Both the position numbers and the translations under genes were made by a program. A DNA stretch of 64,000 bases from Argopecten irradians (lineage: Eukaryota > Mollusca > Bivalvia > Pectinida > Pectinidae), in NCBI RefSeq assembly GCF_041381155.1, contig NC_091137.1, forward strand, positions 27,387,351 to 27,451,350, given 5' to 3'. Shown here in pieces: positions 37 through 60,660 of the stretch. How positions within the stretch are numbered: position 1 is the stretch's first letter; each line of letters opens with the position of its first letter. The notes under the pieces are model-generated. The model saw only the letters and a program-made list of their open reading frames with translations. It did no database searches and had not been told where the DNA came from.

Positions 37-11458
<11,422 letters not shown>

Positions 11459-14100: not shown

Positions 14101-15118
14101 CAAGAGGCCCATGGGCCTTAACGGTCATCTGACTTTAGCACAATACAACATAGTCGTTTAACGATTTTAGCTTATTTGACCCCTGTGACCTTTAATGGGG
14201 ATCATGATCATTCATTTGAGCAAATTTGGTAGCTCTTCGTCCCAGAATGTCACAGGCCCAATATCAGGTCGCTAGGCCTCCTAGTTATTCTCAAGAAGTC
14301 ATTTAAAGATTTTAACCTATTTTACCCCTGTGACCTTGAATGAAAGTCAAGGTCATTCGTTTGAACAAACTTGGTAGCCCTTCATGCCAACATGTCACAG
14401 GCCAAATATGAGTATCCTGGGCCTTTCGGTTCTTGAGAAGACGTTGAAAAGATTTAAGCCTATTTGACACCTGTGACTTTGAATGAAGGTCAGTGTCATT
14501 CATTTGAACAAACTTGGTAGCCCTTCATCCCAGCATGTCACAAGCCCAATATCAGGTCTCTAGGCATCCTATTTATTCGCAGGTAGTCGTTAAAAGATTT
14601 TAGACTATTTGATCCCTGTGATCTTGAATGAAGGTCAAGTTTATTCATTTGAACAAACCTGGTAGGCTGGTAGCCATTTATTGCAGCATGCAACAGGCCC
14701 AATATCAGGTCTCTAGGCCTCTCAGTTATTATTAAGAAGTTGTTGAAAGATTTTAGCCTATTTGACCCCTATTTGACGGTCATTCATTTAAACAAATTTG
14801 ATAGATTTTCATCCCAGCATGCCACAGGCTCAATATCAGGTATCTAGGCCTCTTAGTTATTCACAAGAATTTGTTTAAAGGATTTTAGGCTTTTTGACTC
14901 ATATTACCTTGAATGAAGGTCAAGGTAATTTATTTGAACAAACGTGGTAGCCCTTCATCCCAGTATGGTACAGGTTAAATATCAGTATCCTGGGCCTTCT
15001 GGTTTTTGAGAAGTCATTTGAATAAAAAGTTTACGCACGGTGGACGGCGCACGGCACACGACGTCGGACGGTGGATGATGACATAGGTCATCCTGACCCT
15101 TCGGGTCTGATGACCTAA
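14101..15118 (+). mobile_element. Pearl-like repeat element with ~146-bp tandem core
   Basis: It starts CAAGAGGCCCATGGGCC (a palindrome), continues TTAACGGTCATCTGAC, then has about six diverged core units. Each unit has TATTTGACCCCTGTGACC, GAAGGTCAAGGTCATTCA, GGTAGCCCTTCATCCCAGCA and TCTAGGCC. It ends in a hairpin, AGGTCATCCTGACCC / GGGTC..GATGACCT, followed by AA. Architecture (head, tandem core, hairpin tail) matches what is described for bivalve pearl elements, which have been linked to Helentron-type transposons; that link is inference here. No coding capacity. Confidence 0.8.
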
Positions 15119-24676: not shown

Positions 24677-27600
24677 CAAGAGGCCATGGGTCTAAACGGT
24701 CATCTGACTATTGGCACAATGCAACAAAGTCGTTTAAAGATTTTAGCCTAATTAACCCCTGTGAATAAAGATCAAGGTCATATTTTTTTGAAAAACAAAT
24801 ACGGTAGCCCTTCATCCCAGCATGTCAAAGGCCCTATATCAGGTCTCTAGGTCTCTTAGTAATTCACGAAAAGTTATTTCAGGATTTTAGCCTATTTGAC
24901 CCATTTGACCTTGGATGAAGGTCAAGGTCATTCATTTGAACGAACCTTTAAGCTTTCCATCCAAGCATGTCACAGGTCCAATATTGGGTCTCTAGGCCAC
25001 CTAGTTATTCTCAATAAGTCGTTTAAATATTTTAACTTGACCCCTGTGACCTTGAATGACAAATAAGATCATTAATTTAAACAAATTAGCCCTTTATCAA
25101 AGCATGCTGCCAGCCCAATATGAGTATCCTGGGTCTTTTGGTTCTGGAGAAGTTGTTTAAAGATTTTAGCCTGTTTGACCACTGTGACCTGGAATGAAGG
25201 TCAAGATTATTCATTTAAACAAATTTGGTAGCCCTTCATCCAAGCATGCTGCATGCCAAATATGAGTATCCTGGGCCGTTTGGTTCTTGAAACGAAGTCT
25301 TCTAAAGATTAAAGGCTATTTCACCCCTGTGACCTTGAATGAAGTTCAAGGTCATTCATTTGTACAACGTGGTAGCCCTTCATTCCAGCATGTCACAGGC
25401 CGAATATTAGATCTCTGGACGTATTAGAAAGTACGGCAAAGTATTTCTCAAGAAGGTGTTTAAAGATTTAAGCCTATTTGACCCCTGTGACCTTGAATGA
25501 AAGTCAAAGCAATTCATTTAAACAAACTTAGTAGCCCTTCATCCGAACTTGCTGCAGGGCCAATGCGAGCATCCTTGACCTTTTGGTTCTTGAGAAGAAG
25601 TTGTTTAAAGAGTTTTACCTATTTGACCCCATGACCTTGAATGAAGGTCCAGGTCATTCATTTGAATAAACTTGGTAGCCCTTCATCCCAGAATGTTGCA
25701 GGCCCGATATGAAAACCTTGGGCCTTTCTGTTCTTGAGAAGTCGTTTAAAGATTTTAGCCTATTTGACCACTGTGACCTTGAATGAGAGTCAAGGTCATT
25801 TATTTGAACAAACTTGATAGCCCTTCATCCCAGCATGTTGCAGGTCCAATATGAGAACCCTGAGCCTTTCCGTTCTTGAGAAAAAGTTGTTTAAAGATTT
25901 TTTGACTTTTTGACCCCTGTGACCTTAAATGTCACGGGCCCAATATCAGGTCTTGAAGCCTCTTAGTTATTCACAAGAAAATATTTAAAGAATTTTAGCC
26001 TATTTGACCCCTGTGACCTGAAAGGAAGGCCAAGGTCATTCATTTAAACAATCTTGGTAGTCCTTCATCCCACCATGCTGCAGGTCCAATATGGGTATCC
26101 TTGGCCTTTCGGTTCTTGAGAAGAAGTTGTTTAAAGGGACAATTCACTCAGGCTAATTCTTTTACATAACCAAGAAGCAAAATATGGCATAAATGTATTG
26201 TTCTACATTTCTTATGAAACATATAACATAAGATATTGACAAATTCCACGTCATTGTTAAGTATTTTAATTGATACCGTTGTAATTACAAATCGTTGATC
26301 AATACGATTAAGCAGGTACAATATGTACGCTGTACCAATGTCCGAGCCAAAGTCACGCATGTTAAACAAATGAACTACATAACCACTGTAGAGGTGATAT
26401 AATGATTTTTTAGGCAAAACAATTCACCTAATAAGGTAAACACACTTCTGTCAGAGCGATTTGAGCAGTTCTAGACAAAAGTAGCATTACTCTACGAGCA
26501 AGGGACTTAGTTCGGCATACAAGATACTCAACCATAATGTGTTATGGCGGACAGCGAGTGAGTTTGAAAATTTCACATGCATTTCATCATCATGGAATTT
26601 TCTGACATGTCACAGTAAAACCGACTGATCTAATTTCCATTAGAACTGGGGGTTTTCCGATATATATAAATTTTAATGTTCTCGTAGAATGAATTGTCCC
26701 TTTAAATATTTTAGCCTATCTGACCCCTGTGACATTGAATAAAGATCAAGGTCATTCATTTGGACAAACCTGTTAACCCTTTATCCCAGCATGTCACAGG
26801 TCCAATATCAGATCTCTAGGCCTCTTAGTTATTCACATTAAGTCATTCAAAGATTTTTGACTATTTAACCACTGTGACCTTAAATGAAGGTCAAGGTCAT
26901 CCATTTGACCAAACTTGATAGTCCTTCATTCCAGCATGTCACATGCCCAATATCAGGTTTCTAGGTCTCTTAGTTGTTCACAAGAAGTTGTTCAAAGGAT
27001 TTTAGCCTATTTGACCCCTGTGACCTTGTATGAAGGTCAAGGTCATTCATTTGAACAAACTTGGTAGTCCTTCATCCCAGCATGTCACTGGCCCAATATC
27101 AGGTCTCAAGGCCAATCTAGAGGCCTTTTAGTTATTCACAAGAAAATATTTAAAGGATTTTAGCCTATTTGACCCCTGTGACCTTAAAGGAAGGCCAAGG
27201 TCATTCATTTAAACAATATTGTTGTCCTTCATCCCAGCATGCTGCAGGCCCAATATGGGTATCCTTGGCCTTTGGGTTCTTGAGAAGAAGTTGTTAAAAT
27301 ATTTTAGCCTATATGACCCCTGTGACATTGAATAAAGATCAAGGTCATTCATTTGGAAAATCTGTTAACCCTTTATCCCGCATGTAACAGGTCCAATATC
27401 AGATCTCTAGACCTCTTAGTTATTCACATGAAGTCATTTAAAGATTTTTGACTATTTGACCCCTGTGACCTTAACTGAAGGTCAAGGTCATCCATTTGAC
27501 CAAACTTGATAGCCTTTCATTCCAGCATGTCACATGCCCAATATCAGGTTTCTAGGTCTCTTAGTTGTTCACAAGAAGTTGTTCAAAGGATTTTAGCCTA

Positions 27601-27957
27601 TTTGACCCCTATGACCTTGTATGAAGGTCAAGGTCATTCATTTGAACAAACTTGGTAAACCTTCATTCCAGCATGTCACAGGCTCAATATCGGTTCCTTG
27701 GACCTTCTGGTTCTAGAGAAGAAGCCGTTTAAAGATTTTAGCCTTTTTGACCCCTGTGACCTTGAATGAAGGTTAAGGTCATTCATTTGAACAAACTTGG
27801 TAGCCCTTCATCCCAGCATGCTACAAGCCAAATACCAGCACCCTTGGCCTTTTGTTTATTGTGAAGAAGTCGTCTGAATAAAAAGGTTACGCACTGCGGA
27901 TGACGACGGATGGTGCATGATGACAACAGGTCATCCTGACCCTTTGGGTCAAATGAA
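24677..27957 (+). mobile_element. Very long pearl-like element (~18 core units)
   Basis: The head CAAGAGGCCATGGG at 24677 is followed by about 18 units of ~146 bp (CTATTTGACCCCTGTGACC, CAAGGTCATTCATTTGAACA, CTTGGTAGCCCTTCATCC). A hairpin tail ends near 27957 (AGGTCATCCTGACCC / GGGTCA). A large internal duplication is visible: the units at about 26700-27090 recur at about 27300-27650. A MITE (26135-26700) is inserted in one unit. No coding. Confidence 0.85.
26135..26700. mobile_element. MITE inserted at TTAA inside the pearl-like array
   Basis: Inverted ends AGGGACAATTCA at the left and TGAATTGTCCCT at the right, flanked on both sides by TTTAAA, which the uninterrupted neighbouring units carry once. 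This fits a TTAA target (as in piggyBac-type elements) and a ~570-bp non-autonomous element. Confidence 0.8.
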
Positions 27958-28269: not shown

Positions 28270-31200
28270 CTAAGACGTGGGAACCACAACCGGTGTTGGA
28301 AAAAAGCGGTTTGAGAGTCTATGTTCCTTCAGGTACTCGCCCCCCTTCTCCTCGTAATCCTGCCGAGATATACTATGAGTGGTAAAATGGGGAGACAAGG
28401 CCCACTTCCTGGCTCCATACCAAGTATCCAAGATCGGATTAGCTACAAAAAAAATAAAATAAAAAATTGAAACTTATTCAATGGGAATAATTCATGTACC
28501 ATATGATACGTGTTAGGTTTGTGTGCAGGACTATTGTTTCTATTGATAATGAAATGACGTTAAAAATGATATCCTGCGTAAACGTCATTGCAGCGGGAAG
28601 ATTACAAAAGCTTACATTCCATCACCACTCAGAAACAAGGAGACACAAATGTTACCCGGTATCAAGTGGTACTTGAATTATTCCCATTCCTCTATTTTTT
28701 TTCTATTTTTTATATTAGGACACCTTTGACTCTTCATTTGTTCTCCCTTTATTGAATTAAAGTAAAAGGAGCTGAGATGGTAGGTAGGTAAAATATTTCT
28801 TTTCTCTTGCACACAGAAAAAAAAAATCTTTTTGCATTGCTCCTCTGATACAGTATGATCCACTGTAATTATTCAGAAGTCAATACTTAAAGATGCTCCA
28901 CCGCCGACAGAGCATAAATGATGTTAATCATTTGAACAATAATTGGTGTTTAATCGTATATATATATGCCTAATTAACACAAAAAATAATATAAAATAAT
29001 TTATTTCGCCTTTGGTGCATGCGCAATCAGTACTTCATTCCATATAGGATATAGTCTCACAGAATTTTTTTGGGATGCAATTAATTATTTTTGATATTTT
29101 TAACTTGAAGGAAAATTAGAAGCGCAAACTTTTCAATAGTGGTAATTGTGTAAAGTTTTTTTTAATTTTTATAAAGGGCCTTAAGACCTTTCTATCTATG
29201 AAGAGTATTTGGTTCCAACACATCTGTGAGTGAAGAAAAAGATTTTTGAAATTTTAGTCAATTTTACCCCTTTTGGCCCCTCCCATAGCCCCCTCGGGGA
29301 TGGGGACCATATTATTCACAATTTTGATTGGCTTTATGCCCTAGAAGGTTTGTGCAAAATTTCATTGAAATTGCTGCAGCAGTTTTGGAGAAGAAATCGA
29401 AAATTGTAAATTGTTTGCACAACGGACAACGGACGACGACGGACAAAAGGTGATTAGAATAGGTCACTTGAGACTTGGTCCCAGGTGACCTAATAAAAAA
29501 TTTTGAGTAAAAGCTGACAATACTAGTTCAAAAGTATTGAATTCAGATTTTTAAAGAAAAAATGTACACTTGTATTTCAAGCCAATTTTGTTTTTCTCTC
29601 TACTGGTATTCCGTCACACTCACAGACCCCTATATAAGCGTGAATCGACATACATGTGCTCAGTCTATACATGTACATATACACCTAGCAGTTGTCCACT
29701 GTGTATCACCTACTAATACGTAAACAAAGCCCTACCTGTAAAGCTGTGAAGGGTTTGTTTTGGGAAGAAAACATATCAACTCCTTTAAGCTGTGATTTAG
29801 ATGTTTCAAAAAATGAAATTTCCACACGAGTGAATAGAAATCCAAATAATAATCCATTCACATATCTTTTTTTTTCTTTTTCTTTTTTTAAAATCTCAAA
29901 TGCATACATTTTAACTTGCGTTGTCAGCTTTTAGGCAGTATTTTGATGTCTTTGAGAAAATGGCTAGAAACTTATGCATTTTAGACCTTAAACTTTAAGA
30001 GTTTTCCAACCATTAGTCTAGAGTACAACAGATTATTTACAAACAGATATAAAATACCAGTAAAATATGATATAATGCTAACTACAAATTTCTGATATGG
30101 GAGAAAAAATGTATCATCCATTTAAAGGTGAAAGACCTGATTATCATACAACTAATGGAGCAGGAGAAGACATGATAGAAATAGGTAAAACTACATAGCC
30201 TCTCCCTTTATTTTATAATTTTGGTATAATATTGTCACATGGTTAGTATTAACATACCTGCACAGGACACATTGAAGAGGGATTGGAATGGCCTCATTTC
30301 TAGTAATTCTGTCTGTAGTCTCTGTTGAAAGTTCCGGAAATTGGCATTTCCTCCGGTAAGAAACACATTCTAAAATTGAATTTGACCTTCTTTATTAATA
30401 AATTAATACCTCTTTCTTATCAAAATTCACAAGCGTTACTGAATTTCTTTTGAATCAAACATCAATCCAATCATCGGGTAAATGGGAATGATTAGATAAA
30501 TTGGAGTGTTGACTTTTCTCTTTCAGTATAGACATGTTAAAGATGCTCCACCACTGACAAATGGTATTTTTTCACTAACAAAAACAAGAGCAGACAATTT
30601 GGTATTTTTCTTCAGTTACAAAAGTTACTTACTTTACACCATTAGCACCATTGAAAAGTTTGAGATTCTAATTTTACCTCAAGTTAAAATATCAAAAATA
30701 TTTAATTGCATCCCGAAAAAAATTCCGTGGCACTATATCCTATATGGAATGAAGTACTGATTGCGCATGCACCAAAGTCAAAACAAAATATTTTATATTG
30801 TTTTTTGTGTTAATTAGACATATATATACACGATTAAACACATCTTATTGTTCAAATGACAAATAAAATTTATGCTCTGTCAGCGGTGGAGCTTCTTTAA
30901 TGGTATACTTGTAAATACAATAGTAAGCAGGAAAAGTGGATATAAACACAGGTAGATATCTGCCAATATTCAAAAGGAGGTATGATCAACAAGATGTTCA
31001 GCTTACCTGTGCTAATCTGCCCTGCCGATCAGCATCATGCTTTTTCAGAACATAGCCCATTGTCTCTGCTAAACCAGCTTGCTCTAGACCAAGCATGGAA
31101 GGCTGGAATAACAGCTCAGGTACCCTGGTAAACACGATACATAAAATCATAAATTTTACTGATTTATTACAGAACACTCAATTGAACTCTGGTACAGCTG

Positions 31201-33820
31201 GAACACTTCAATATGAAATGACAAGGATTGATGGGGTAATTTTCAACAGCCATACTGTGATTTTGTGGTTCTATCCTGGTAAAATCTGATATACTAAAGG
31301 TATTAAACTGTAATACAGGTGTCAACATTTATTCACTGTATATACATTATAGTTTGACACACAATTAAATTCACACACCATAAACAGAAATTGCATGCAG
31401 AAACAGAAGATCATCACAGTTTTGCCTAAATTATTCACCACAGAAATTTGAACAATAAAATATGCTACAAGTTTTCAAAAGCAAACCATCATTTTTCTGA
31501 AAGAGGATGGCATACTGTACATTTTCGCATATGGTGTCAAGCTTTATCAAGAAAAGCCCACAGAACCTGAAAATCCTACATAAGCCATCAGACTAAAATG
31601 TCATATCTTATCTTCACAGCATATCTATCAGTGGAAACAGTATACCTATGTCAGTCACTAACCTGACTCTCTCTATGACCGAGTGTAGACGGTAGTACTC
31701 CGCTATATCAAACTACCTATGTCAGTCACTAACCTGACTCTCTCTATGACCGAGTGTAGACGGTAGTACTCCGCTATATCAAACTACCTATGTCAGTCAC
31801 TAACCTGACTCTCTCTATGGCTAGATGTAGGCGGTAGTACTCCGCTATATCAAACTACCTATGTCAGTCACTAACCTGACTTTCTCTATGACCGAGTATA
31901 GACGTAGTACTCCGCTATATCAAACTACCTATGTCAGTCACTAACCTGACTTTCTCTATGACCGAGTGTAGACGGTAGTACTCCACTATATCAAACTACC
32001 TATGTCAGTCACTAACCTGACTCTCTCTATGGCTAGATGTAGGCGGTAGTACTCCGCTATATCAAACTACCTATGTCAGTCACTAACCTGACTCTCTCTA
32101 TGACCTGGTGTAGACGGTAGTACATGTACTCCGCTATATCAAACTACCTATGTCAGTCACTAACCTGACTCTCTCTATGACCTGGTGTAATGGTAGTACT
32201 CCGCTATATCAAACTACCTATGTCAGTCACTAACCTGACTCTCTCTATGACCTGGTGTAGACGGTAGTACATGTACTCCGCTATATCAAACTACCTATGT
32301 CAGTCACTAACCTGACTCTCTCTATGACCTGATGTAATGGTAGTACTCCGCTATATCAAACTACCTATGTCAGTCACTAACCTGACTCTCTCTATGACCG
32401 AGTATAGACGTAGTACTCCACTATATCAAACTACCTACATGTATGTCAGTCACTAACCTGACTCTCTCTATGACCGAGTATAGACGTAGTACTCCACTAT
32501 ATCAAACTACCTATGTCAGTCACTAACCTGACTCTCTCTACGACCGAGTGTAGACGGTAGTGCTCCGCTATATCAAACTACCTATGTCAGTCACTAACCT
32601 GACTTTCTCTATGACCGAGTGTAGACGGTAGTACTCCACTATATCAAATTACCTATGTCAGTCACTAACCTGACTCTCTCCATGACCGAGTGTAGACGGT
32701 AGTACTCCGCTATATCAAACTACCTATGTCAGTCACTTACCTGACTCTCTCTATGACCTAATCCCTATTGAGATTCCTCCTCTAGACTCTTTTATATTCG
32801 TACGTTTGATAGATGTCTCTCGTCCGACGGGAGATATCTATCAAACGTCCGAATATAAAAGAGTCTAGAGGAGGAATCTCAATAGGAATTATCTATGACC
32901 GGGTGCAGACGGTAGTACTCCGCTATATCAAACTACCTATGTCAGTCACTAACATGACTCTCTCTATGACCGAGTGTAGACGGTAGTACTCCGCTATATC
33001 AAACTACCTATGTCAGTCACTAACCTGACTCTCTCTACGACCGAGTGTAAACAGTAGTACTCCACAATATCAAACTACCTATGTCAGTCACTAACCTGAC
33101 TCTCTCCATGACCGAGTGTAGACGGTAGTACTCCGCTATATCAAACTACCTATGTCAGTCACTTACCTGACACTCTCTATGACCTAATCCCTATTGAGAT
33201 TCCTCCTCTAGACTCTTTTATATTCGTACACGTTTGATAGATGTCTCTCGTCCGACGGGAGACATCTATCAAACGTCCGAATATAAAAGAGTCTAGAGGA
33301 GGAATCTCAATAGGGATTATCTATGACCGGGTGCAGACGGTAGTACTCCGCTATATCAAACTACCTATGTCAGTCACTAACCTGACTCTCTCTATGACCG
33401 AGTGTAGACGGTAGTACTCCGCTATATCAAACTACCTATGTCAGTCACTAACCTGACTCTCTCTATGACCGAGTGTAGACGGTAGTACTCCGCTATATCA
33501 AACTACCTATGTCAGTCACTAACCTGACTCTCTCTATGACCGAGTGTAGACGGTAGTACTCCGCTATATCAAACTACCTATGTCAGTCACTAACCTGACT
33601 CTCTCTATGACCGAGTGTAGACGGTAGTACTCCACTATATCAAACTACCTATGTCAGTCACTAACCTGACTCTCTCTATGACCGAGTGTAGACGGTAGTA
33701 CTCCACTATATCAAACTACCTATGTCAGTCACTAACCTGACTCTCTCTATGGCTAGATGTAGGCGGTAGTACTCAGCTATATCAAACTCCCCCTGGGGAT
33801 CCATGCCTTTATCAAGCTCC
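28270..33820 (-). CDS. ACTR5: ACTR5 exons 16-19: actin-fold C-terminal part
   Basis: Residues 558-719. Exon 16 (33737-33820) encodes [20 protein letters not shown] and is the source of the 71-bp array. Exon 17 encodes [20 protein letters not shown], exon 18 [20 protein letters not shown] and exon 19 [15 protein letters not shown] through [13 protein letters not shown] to the stop at 28270-28272. Exon 19's complement is open for 84 codons on the plus strand (28131-28385); that frame is a shadow. Confidence 0.95.
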
Positions 33821-36800: not shown

Positions 36801-39800
36801 TACTGTGATTGTCAGATTGTCCAAAACCCAATTGCATAATGTCTGCTTCTAAAATAAGATAATTCCGGCACTAGTTTTAACTTGATGAAAAGCTACATAT
36901 CTATTGCTTAATTACACAACATGTGGATTATTTTGGCTGGAGCTGAATATGTAATCACATCCACTTGCTGTGACCCAGAGGCTGGCTTTTGATGCTCGCT
37001 AAGACACCTCGTAACTGGCCTGTCCAAGCCAGCGTGAGGCACATGTTTACAGGTAATTTAACACCTTGATTGGCTGATTAAAGATAGACTGAATGCATAT
37101 TTTAATAACAACTTATACTGATATCTGTATCTAGATTGGACTTAACAAACATTGGCGATTTCTTCCACGTGTTTCCATCAGGTACAGCGAATATTCAAAT
37201 ATACTTTGTCTGGGCCTAAGATTAAATGTTTTTGTGTACGATATATTGGCATAAATAATTTTATTTATGACTTAAAATGTTTATGTTAATTTCTTATCTG
37301 TTGTATGGTCATAATAATCATTCATACAATTTTTATTCCAAACATTTTTGTTCCAATGAGCAAAATATGTCACCATTTTTGGGGACCCCATTGCGCCAAT
37401 TTGCTGACAAACATCTTGCTTTTACGTTCATAATTTGACGTGTTCGAACTATCCGAAATAGGATTGATTATAAAAAGTCAGTGTTCGAACTATTGCTAGC
37501 TAAAAAATTACTGTTTTTCCAGAAAAAAATGCGTGTTCGAACTATCCGGCGGTTCGAATCAACCAAAGGTTTACCGTAGAGGCGATATGTTTGATAATAC
37601 CGATTAAAATTGTATGTTAATGCTATTTTTTGCATTTGTATCTTAGCCACACCCATGGAGCTATTCCAACCAATCATAGCCCAGTTTACATACTTCAATT
37701 GTCTAACGGCTCGCTCACCTATCATGGTAACTACTGAGCCACAACATCAGTTGATAGGTCACAGCCGATACCAACACTTGTTGTATTTTGTCAGTAAAAG
37801 TTATAAATTACATGAACATACCATTTCCTTATAAACCTAGTATATATATACACAAATTACATGAACATACCATTTCCTTATAAACCTAGTACATATATAC
37901 ACAAATTACATGTACTTACTATTTCCTTATAAACCTAGTACATATATACACAAATTACATGTACTTACCATTTCCTTATAAACCTAGTACATATATACAC
38001 AAATTACATGAACATACCATTTCCTTATAAACCTAGTACATATATACACAAATTACATGTACATACCATTTCCTTATAAACCTAGTACATATATACACAA
38101 ATTACATGAACATACCATTTCCTTATAAACCTAGTACATATATACACAAATTACATGTACATACTATTTCCTTATAAACCTAGTACATATATACACAAAT
38201 TACATGTACTTACCATTTCCTTATAAACCTAGTACATATATACACAAATTACATGAACATACCATTTCCTTATAAACCTAGTACATATATACACAAATTA
38301 CATGTACTTACTATTTCCTTATAAACCTAGTACATATATACACAAATTACATGAACATACTATTTCCTTATAAACCTAGTACATATATACACAAATTACA
38401 TGAACATACTATTTCCTTATAAACCTAGTACATATATACACAAATTACATGTACATACTATTTCCTTATAAACCTAGTACATATATACACAAATTACATG
38501 TACTTACTATTTCCTTATAAACCTAGTACATATATACACAAATTACATGTACTTACTATTTCCTTATAAACCTAGTACATATATACACAAATTACATGTA
38601 CTTACTATTTCCTTATAAACCTAGTACATATATACACAAATTACATGTACTTACTATTTCCTTATAAACCTAGTACATATATACACAAATTACATGTACT
38701 TACTATTTCCTTATAAACCTAGTACATATATACACAAATTACATGTACTTACTATTTCCTTATAAACCTAGTAAATATATACACAAATTACATGTACTTA
38801 CTATTTCCTTGTACACTTCCCAATCAGCATCATTCTGACCGAAGGTATCTTCCTTCTTTTTCTTTTTTGTTCCTCCTGATGGAATCAAACATATTGTCAT
38901 TATATAGGTCATTAAATAACATTTCATTGATTTCGTATAATGAATTTCAAATAAAATTATCATAATGCCTCTCTACTCTAGGACCCCAAGTTTTATTGAT
39001 GGAGAGAAGTTCGTTCAAAACTGATATACAAGTAAACTGAAAATGGTATAAAATATGACAAGTGATGATTTTCTTAAGGAGACTTTGAGTCTGTATAATG
39101 TCTTGGAAAGACATCTATATCTGTCTATAGTTATTGATGCAACACAAATCAACAATTAAACTTGTGTCCGATAAGAATGGGAAACAAATTGCACACTAAA
39201 ATTCTGCCTATGCAAATCAAATCAACAACTCATGTTCACCGATTCTATATACAAACCCCTTTATTGAATGTAATTCCTTATCACACCAGATCACATTAAA
39301 AGAGATGATACTGTACATTGTACACTGTTCTAAAGACAGAACCTAATATCTGTACTGGTCATCCTTGATACTCCAGGGATTACTATCACTTACGTTGACA
39401 TTATATCCACCCCTGGATTATCTCATAGTAAAATTGGAGGCAACAGAACTGGTAATTTAGTTCTTTGATGTACAACAAAAGGATTGTAGAACAGTACACT
39501 GTGGTTGACTCTTTGGATTTGAAGTTGGGGGTTGCTCTGTTTTCTTTAAAGGAAATCTTTGCAGTTCTGTAATTGGTTCAGATTTGTTCTCCTGAGCTGC
39601 CTTCAATATTACAATGAGATAGCCCAGGTGTGAATATAACATCAGTTATAGTAACCCCTGGAGTATCAAGGATGGTACTGGCCAACTACCAGTTCTCTCC
39701 AGGTACAAAATCTTGCCTGATATATGTGCATTTATTCAATACACTTTAATCTTTCTGATCATTATAGAAGACACTACTAAGAAGATTTTTACACACAAAA

Positions 39801-59540: not shown

Positions 59541-59876
59541 TTAAATGCCATTCTGTGCAGTATTTAGCAGAATAGAGAAAAGCGCATTTTTATCTATTTC
59601 AGTAACAATGGTTATGTTCGGATCTTTCTTGAGCATGCTGTGCCAATCTACAACCATTTGTCCATAGGTGAACTTTCCCTCTAGCTCTACAGTGGCGTAC
59701 ACGTGTTCGGTCTCTCTTATGACCTCTGCTGGCCTTAACATACATGCCGCTAAAATCTCATCAGCCAATGTATATTTCCAGTCTTGTTCGATAGAAAAGG
59801 CGACAGGGTTCTGTTCAATATTCTTTAAAAATTGGTTGCGCTTTCCAGGGAATCTTCGTAGTTCATGGTATTTATC
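59541..59876 (-). CDS. Inosine-uridine preferring nucleoside hydrolase, last exon (partial gene)
   Basis: Acceptor ...TTTCAG at 59877-59882, then 111 codons in phase 0 and stop at 59541-59543. Segments fit the C-terminal third of nucleoside hydrolases: YTLADEILAACMLRPAEVI (the domain around the DE/DP pair), HVYATVELEGKFTYGQMVVDW and NITIVTEIDKNALFSIL. The N-terminal DxDxxxDD calcium-binding motif must be in upstream exons that I could not find before 64000, so the rest lies beyond a repeat-rich intron or outside the window. AATAAA on the minus strand at 59519-59524 is 17 nt after the stop. Convergent with the dioxygenase gene, 296 bp between stop codons. Confidence 0.85.
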   Translation of the reverse strand, partial: DKYHELRRFPGKRNQFLKNIEQNPVAFSIEQDWKYTLADEILAACMLRPAEVIRETEHVYATVELEGKFTYGQMVVDWHSMLKKDPNITIVTEIDKNALFSILLNTAQNGI

Positions 59877-60660
59877 CTGAAACAAAACACATAGTTTTGG
59901 ATGTTCGTTGTACTTTTAATGCTTATAAATTTCTGCGTTGTAATCGTTTTGCCCTCTCGAATAAAAAAAAAATGTTACTTAATTTTGAAATACTTATATA
60001 TTTGAAAGCCAATAAAATTACTGAATAATCGAATCGGCTGATCGACTAGCCTATTGTGGCCTTGAAAATGTATGTGCTTTACATATAGAGGTTCCCCAGT
60101 AAGTTACGATTGGTTATCAGATTTCAGATTTTATTAATACACTCTGGGCACACCTTTGTGTGCCACAAGAGATCAATTTATACAAATCATACATGACAGA
60201 CAGGGTTAATTGATAGTACAGTGTGAACATAATAATAGCGTACTCAAGCGTACATATTCGTTAGTTGTATGATTGTAGTATAAATAACAATATTTTACGT
60301 ACATAGGAGAGTAGCATAATGAATAGTCATCGAATATTATAGACTCTTTCATATGTATGATAGGGTACCCGAGGGTCACAAATGTATAAAACCGAACAAC
60401 ATTTTGTGATCCGTAATCCCTATCCTTCATATCCACAAGGTATTTTGCAATTTTACAACTATAAAAATTTTGAAATAATATATACTTAATAGTTCGTGAT
60501 ATTTTCATTGACCTTTAGTCTTTTATAGTAAAGCCATAGCATGTTAAAATTTTACCGAGGAAATATACATTTTTTTGACGCCGTTACACTATTGAGTGGG
60601 TTGCCATGAATACATTGATGATTTATTTCCAGTATTACACGTGTAGGTATGAAAGAATGA
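59877..60660. other. Nucleoside hydrolase intron, nothing recognised
   Basis: No further exon seen. The minus-strand frame at 60206-60508 has no similarity or splice support. Confidence 0.4.

Follow-up and report, generated by a model that had tools for sequence, protein, structure and literature searches.

Intron 16 of the gene for actin-related protein 5 (ACTR5, or ARP5) in the bay scallop Argopecten irradians holds a 71-bp minisatellite that was built from the end of exon 16 and its 5' splice site, such that the true donor is followed by 25 intronic copies that each carry a donor-like site. The array lies within a stretch of 64,000 nucleotides (C4:27387351-27451350; hereafter the window, in whose positions all coordinates without a locus label are given), and a second donor-bearing array with an unrelated unit starts at exon 14 of the same gene. 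Our reading is that the array probably arose as a by-product when a minisatellite was born across the exon-intron border of ACTR5 and that the gene tolerates it; births of this kind recur at other genes of this scallop. The array had been proposed earlier from the letters of the window alone (the sequence-only reading), and its principal claim, a minisatellite of 26 units made from an exon end and a 5' splice site, is confirmed here.

An array grown from the end of exon 16

We assembled the ACTR5 model from splice signals and open frames, which gave 19 exons and a protein of 719 residues that is 100% identical, over its full length, to the record 'actin-related protein 5-like [Argopecten irradians]' (the comparison was with the protein, not with the record's gene model). 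Its top match in the PDB is Arp5 (6hts, E = 1.2e-175), and it matches the Pfam Actin domain. The identity with the protein record bears out the positions that the sequence-only reading had given to exons 16 and 17 (Table 1). Exon 16 is 84 nt long, and its peptide is nearly unchanged in Mytilus, in Ostrea, and in the protein of one further relative.

Tandem Repeats Finder (TRF) reported a period of 71 and 30 "copies", a number in which two long insertions are counted; our scripted split of the same interval yielded 26 units. As had been proposed, the true junction is the one nearest the exon: The real end of exon 16 is unit 1 (33786-33716), and the 25 units that follow are intronic. In an ordinary unit, ~51 nt stem from the exon end and ~20 nt from the intron, with a border that is ambiguous by one base, where 52 and 19 nt had been proposed. 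Unit lengths are 70, 71, 76, or 77 bp, apart from two units of 213 and 215 bp that contain an inverted-repeat insert of 133 or 135 bp. A GT donor is present in all 25 intronic units and CAG/GT(T/A)AGT (the slash marks the exon border) in 24. The claim that CAG/GTTAGT is kept in every unit holds for 22 of the 25, while two units read CAG/GTAAGT and one reads CAT/GTTAGT.

The array is not a chance resemblance, as can be seen by comparing ACTR5 junctions with one another. A 60-mer laid over donor 16 found 25 further matches in the window and one over donor 14 found 20, whereas 60-mers over the remaining 34 donors and acceptors revealed no tandem copies beside any of them in the window: 29 were without matches, and the other 5 had between 1 and 10, all weak (14-27 nt) and dispersed. 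Upon searching the 845.8-Mb genome of A. irradians with the array sequence, all 28 matches among the best-scoring candidates fell at the ACTR5 locus.

The differences between units record how the array arose. Across 71 aligned columns of the 26 units (inserts left out), all 25 intronic units share the change 12T>G relative to the exon unit; 17 of them also share six identical changes at positions 24-35, and the units at 32066 and 31854 differ from the exon unit by 12T>G alone. Because 12T>G is common to all intronic copies, the intronic array derives most simply from one copy, without later refreshing from the exon. These data support a tandem duplication across the exon-intron border as the origin, as first suggested. 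The homology AGTTTG that had been placed at the breakpoint did not hold: Units join as GGTA/GTTTG (here the slash marks the joint), the exon reads GGGA/GTTTG, and the intron past the last unit reads GGTA/TACTG. Identity at the founding joint is therefore one base, and AGTTTG is an effect of the repeat rather than its cause.

Several rounds of spread, also claimed previously, are borne out by 19 distinct sequences among the 26 units and by a block of 428 bp that occurs twice in the array. This block holds an insert resembling a miniature inverted-repeat transposable element (MITE), whose 135-bp copy is predicted to fold as RNA with -103.8 kcal/mol (z = -18.4); no further copy was found in the window or in the other loci compared. 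Both insert-carrying units also have the stronger GTAAGT donor. Separately, three units (starts 32290, 32143, and 32506, minus strand) contain six-base insertions with ACATGT inside GTACATGTAC or ATACATGTAG.

Table 1. Positions in the window of ACTR5, its two donor-bearing arrays, and the inserts within the 71-bp array.
Feature	Position	Strand	Basis
ACTR5 (ARP5) coding region, 19 exons, 719 aa	28270..47827	-	exon model, protein identity, PDB, Pfam Actin
Exon 17, acceptor side of intron 16	31007..31124	-	gene model; protein identity across junction
Intron 16, 2612 nt, mostly array	31125..33736	-	gene model
71-bp minisatellite, 26 units (1 exonic, 25 intronic, each with donor-like site)	31643..33788	-	TRF and scripted unit split
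Second copy of MITE-like insert, 133 bp, 97% identical, spread with array	32759..32891		sequence comparison
MITE-like insert in one unit, 135-bp near-perfect inverted repeat, 9-bp target duplication GGTCATAGA	33185..33319		sequence, RNA fold
Exon 16, last ~51 nt the array founder, true donor CAG/GTTAGT at end	33737..33820	-	gene model; near-identical bivalve peptide
Minisatellite of 49 bp x 20.5 whose start lies within the final 9 nt of exon 14; donor copied 20 times in the intron	37805..38810	-	TRF, junction matches
Exon 14, ends AAGGAAATA/GTAAGT	38802..38875	-	gene model

We propose the following course of events. One tandem duplication would have copied ~51 nt of exon 16, the donor, and ~20 nt of intron, a single founding event being suggested by 12T>G, which all 25 intronic copies share. 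Slippage or unequal exchange may then have enlarged the intronic copies only, and point changes, the MITE-like insertion, and the block duplication would have come later. We considered the opposite direction as well, where the array is the older element and the exon acquired its end from it when a splice site moved into the repeat. The exon end does resemble the units, a likeness that by itself leaves the direction unsettled, but we find this order hardly credible: Mussel and oyster retain the exon peptide, divergence is found in the intronic units, and at two further arrays described below (in the genes DDX42 and SPR) the exon ends match distant animals. Given the near identity of the exon peptide in Mytilus and Ostrea, the exon unit is ancestral and the forms encoding SV and QV are derived. 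It is also very unlikely that the array was collapsed or expanded by the assembly. Tandem arrays are error-prone and one assembly was read, such that the copy number may still be wrong, but 19 distinct units of 26 and a nested insert with its target duplication are unlike simple mis-assembly.

Decoy donors and the splicing of ACTR5

Translated in silico, transcripts spliced from an intronic donor (a decoy, for short) would end early: All 25 decoys after exon 16 run into a stop at codon 596, which lies 28 nt beyond the true junction, and all 20 after exon 14 run into one 39 nt beyond theirs. The sequence-only reading had argued that read-through would shift the frame because 71 is not a multiple of three, which is correct but beside the point, as all 25 decoys reach the same stop at any copy number. 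Nothing in the donor itself marks the true exon-16 site, which stands out by having a good acceptor 84 nt away. According to our proposal, the exon-attached donor alone would be paired, across the 84-nt exon, with the real upstream acceptor, as expected from exon definition, and the gene would keep working. The decoys offer a mostly identical donor and much the same 50 nt upstream, but they would lack a nearby acceptor, and a decoy that was used would yield the computed premature stop and presumably nonsense-mediated decay.

Some points weigh against such a quiet coexistence. Predicted duplexes with U1 amount to -9.0 kcal/mol for the true exon-16 donor and 22 decoys and to -2.4 kcal/mol for the CAT/GTTAGT unit, but the two CAG/GTAAGT decoys in intron 16 reach -12.9 kcal/mol and are hence predicted to be stronger than the true donor. 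Likewise, two units of the exon-14 array (ATG/GTAAGT, -10.5 kcal/mol) are predicted to exceed their true donor (-7.0 kcal/mol). With stronger predicted duplexes at these sites, some decoy use is plausible. Furthermore, the case for sole use of the first donor comes from the annotated protein, and neutrality of the decoys is suggested by a lack of conservation, a weak test among 26 recently related units.

The sequence-only reading had suggested that the copies may titrate U1, slow splicing, or produce cryptic isoforms. In a rival account, selection could have kept the decoys for a function, where the copies bind U1, slow splicing, tune ACTR5 via unproductive transcripts, or shield the long intron from premature polyadenylation. 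GT(T/A)AGT is retained after CAG in 24 of 25 intronic copies, and every decoy gives a premature stop, as a poison switch would. The donor positions, however, are not unusually conserved: 2 of the 37 changes inferred on a tree fell in the nine donor positions, and 21 of 63 nine-base windows had counts as low or lower, such that change counts among the 26 units gave no signal of selection on decoy donors. The donor even varies in the exon-14 array. Arrays that share no sequence and occur at several genes are more easily read as mutation than as regulation, and an acceptor-type array in a gene with a PDZ domain (see below) would be left unexplained by U1 binding. We consider a selected function unlikely, and our sequence analysis found no evidence for one in the exon-16 array.

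Arrays at other exon borders

The sequence-only reading had treated the locus as a single curiosity, a view that did not survive the discovery of the exon-14 array and of further such arrays in the genome. Units at exon 14 hold the last nine bases of the exon (the final one A or G) followed by a variable donor (GTAAGTAC, GTATGTAC, or GTATGTTC). ACTR5 accordingly has arrays at 2 of its 18 donors and at 0 of its 18 acceptors. The units at exons 14 and 16 have no common word longer than 6, and a common origin of the arrays was rejected, the longest word shared among four array units compared being 8 nt. The word GTACATGT is also common to units of the exon-14 array and of an array in an acyltransferase gene.

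To look across the genome, we counted occurrences of three AGGTRAGT motifs spaced 50-80 nt apart, with the motif read backwards as a control. This yielded 7101 + 6714 (13,815) against 935 + 1443 (2,378) for the reversed motif, numbers that refer to matches and not to arrays, while outside tandem repeats the two motifs were equally frequent (24 versus 25 in 231 kb). Among the matches listed, four arrays lay in the first 5.53 Mb of C1, and we read the edges of all four. A 35-bp array of ~6 kb by extent starts at an exon end of the gene for sepiapterin reductase (SPR; L034, L035), as identified by TIGR01500 (E = 1.6e-13, partial and below the cut-off) and by the PDB (E = 1.9e-10); by eye, a candidate last SPR exon follows it. 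A 41-bp array of ~6.9 kb by extent starts at an exon end of the acyltransferase gene (L032, L038), whose identity comes from a Pfam match of hand-joined exons below the family cut-off (E = 2.5e-4), the exon alone having no match. The exons before a third array (L031, L036, L039) are ones that we take, by eye, to be those of a P5-type ATPase; the candidate exon at this array (L031, L036) had no matches in Pfam or NCBIfam. Here, a possible short exon (DCKWEVFVCDYQPSTQTYYQR) lies between an upstream 39-bp array and a downstream 48-bp donor-bearing array (L036 1766-3501, and L031). At the edges of the fourth, a 37-bp array (L033, with L037 and L040), no exon was identified.

We also drew an unselected sample of 220 kb, made up of twenty stretches of 10 kb whose coordinates were fixed and two more on the flanks of the window, and collected from it arrays with a period of 20-250 and at least four copies. 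There were 24, covering 34.6 kb; in an extra 10 kb (L041), no array reached four copies. For comparison, TRF repeats make up a published 15.10% in A. i. irradians (PMC7090048). Three of the 24 arrays have a donor at an exon end (L014, L018, L022) and one has an acceptor (L022). The array in L014 (97 bp x 86) has its donor at the end of a DDX42 exon (PDB, E = 1.9e-9). That in L018 (33 bp x 11.6) belongs to a CEMIP-like gene with a G8 domain (E = 5.3e-17), where hand-joined exons give a below-cut-off ILEI match (E = 4e-4) that extends over the exon end and the exon alone has no match. A 29 bp x 21 array in L022 has its donor at an open exon, without a Pfam match, on the strand of a gene whose hand-joined exons match a PDZ domain (E = 3.3e-10). 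In the acceptor-type array of the same locus (54 bp x 27; 6980-8457), the final unit continues into the beginning of the PDZ exon and the intronic copies carry the acceptor. Array birth at independent junctions has thus recurred at ACTR5 exons 14 and 16, SPR, the acyltransferase gene, DDX42, and the CEMIP-like gene, with word sharing compared for four of the units only. Independent repeats of the process proposed for exon 16 would make these arrays a recurrent class in a genome with ~15% tandem repeats.

An automatic edge scan proposed nine donor candidates, of which we accepted three (L018 and both ACTR5 arrays); the donors of L014 and of the 29-bp array in L022 escaped it, as did the acceptor in L022, and all three came to light when the sequences were read. 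An acceptor candidate from the scan in L009 was judged unconvincing. Also rejected were a 65-bp array in L011 that has a donor-like site but starts after a polymerase-like exon and leaves out its donor, and, in the window, a 38-bp x 13 array with CAG/GTTAGC on the plus strand (10100-10595), which has no convincing exon.

Do such arrays merely hit exon borders at the expected rate, or are splice junctions, donors above all, hot spots of minisatellite birth in the bay scallop? The latter would mean that arrays arise there several times more often than junction density predicts, across a large set of genes, through a mutational bias such as transcription-linked breaks or R-loops at exon borders. 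Taking 26,777 genes with 7.11 exons each in 835.7 Mb, we expected 0.33 donor arrays and 0.33 acceptor arrays in the sample, against the three and one observed (P = 0.005 both for at least three donors and for at least four junctions). With 20 nt of slack, P rises to 0.009 for donors and 0.011 for junctions, and without the unverified exon at the 29-bp array of L022 to 0.04 and 0.03. The sample is small, donors were looked for more closely than acceptors in its arrays, and the gene and exon counts, taken from a different assembly, could be underestimates, in which case the expectation would rise. The motif counts and the presence of two arrays within ACTR5 point in the same direction, although the triple count, which sets a donor motif against its reversal only, could be driven by a handful of very long arrays. 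A donor score of at least 8 (from a matrix that was not fitted) was reached by 6 of the 24 sampled array units and by 1 of 24 reversed, but of these six only L014 and L018 lie at a demonstrable exon; in L019, in L027, and in two arrays of L025, the donor-like site is present and reading found no exon. Sample and motif count favor an excess at borders over hits at the expected rate, with both of them thin (small numbers, copy-weighted matches, and no acceptor control). Splice junctions as preferred birth sites thus remain a tentative proposition, somewhat short of an even chance. The acceptor-type array in L022 suggests that the bias, if real, concerns exon borders generally and not U1 sites alone.

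Further features were seen in passing. In the window, open frames resembling a Gypsy-like gag-pol lie on the minus strand at 2239-7039 (by eye), three arrays at 14152-15004, 24803-25931, and 26704-27838 apparently belong to one 145-bp tandem repeat family, and a minus-strand open frame at 59541-59915 resembles a nucleoside hydrolase exon (by eye). In the sample, an 84-bp tandem repeat in L025 (3359-3897) resembles zinc-finger coding sequence that is partly interrupted by stops (by eye).

Known systems and what the arrays mean

Minisatellites that bear donors and tandem repeats at exon boundaries are already known, the former from human IFI6 and the latter from human duplicated genes; we compare them here with the scallop arrays. 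In IFI6 (6-16, G1P3), downstream repeat units of a minisatellite are reported to be used as donors, which gives three mRNA species (PMC4526556, citing Turri, Cuin and Porter 1995, Nucleic Acids Res 23:1854). Tandem units with 5' splice sites beside an exon end are common to IFI6 and ACTR5, but the IFI6 repeat donors were reported as used in mRNA, whereas the ACTR5 decoys would lead to a stop and are not known to be used. The ACTR5 unit, moreover, is 71 bp long, ~51 nt of it conserved and coding, and the scallop genome has several unrelated arrays. Human genes in segmental duplications have internal tandem repeats at their exon-intron boundaries, with an average of four 30-bp units (De Grassi and Ciccarelli 2009, PMC2812944). 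Those repeats are short and were defined between human paralogs, whereas the scallop arrays are found in single genes, have ~12 to 180 copies, and extend up to 8 kb, and in the scallop, exon borders appear over-represented.

Intron gain by tandem duplication (PMC4974935) likewise involves duplication across splice-competent sequence. In ACTR5, by contrast, an existing intron was lengthened, and the duplicates carry donors, with no acceptor scored in them and nothing to suggest a gained intron. In Caenorhabditis elegans, CeRep25B, a clustered repeat family, and other intronic minisatellites lie near alternative splicing (PMC4039745); an intronic minisatellite is proposed to bear on splicing there too, but in the part of that source that we saw, nothing presents CeRep25B as copied from a neighboring exon end, unlike the ACTR5 array. 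We found no description of splice-junction-seeded minisatellites as a genomic class in the titles and abstract starts among the matches listed from the open-licence literature.

For annotators, the findings mean that arrays beside exons can conceal exon copies and false donors. The 26 donor sites of the exon-16 array, which have much the same sequence from -50 to +20 and differ in position relative to the upstream acceptor, constitute a natural experiment on exon definition. If the excess proved to be genome-wide, it would tell where many minisatellites originate, with exon borders as one source. The matter can be tested directly with the existing annotation and RNA sequencing of this farmed species. 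Hot spots at splice junctions, if true, would tie the origin of minisatellites to DNA damage associated with transcription or splicing and would provide many natural tests of how the spliceosome settles on a single donor when dozens of nearly identical sites are on offer.
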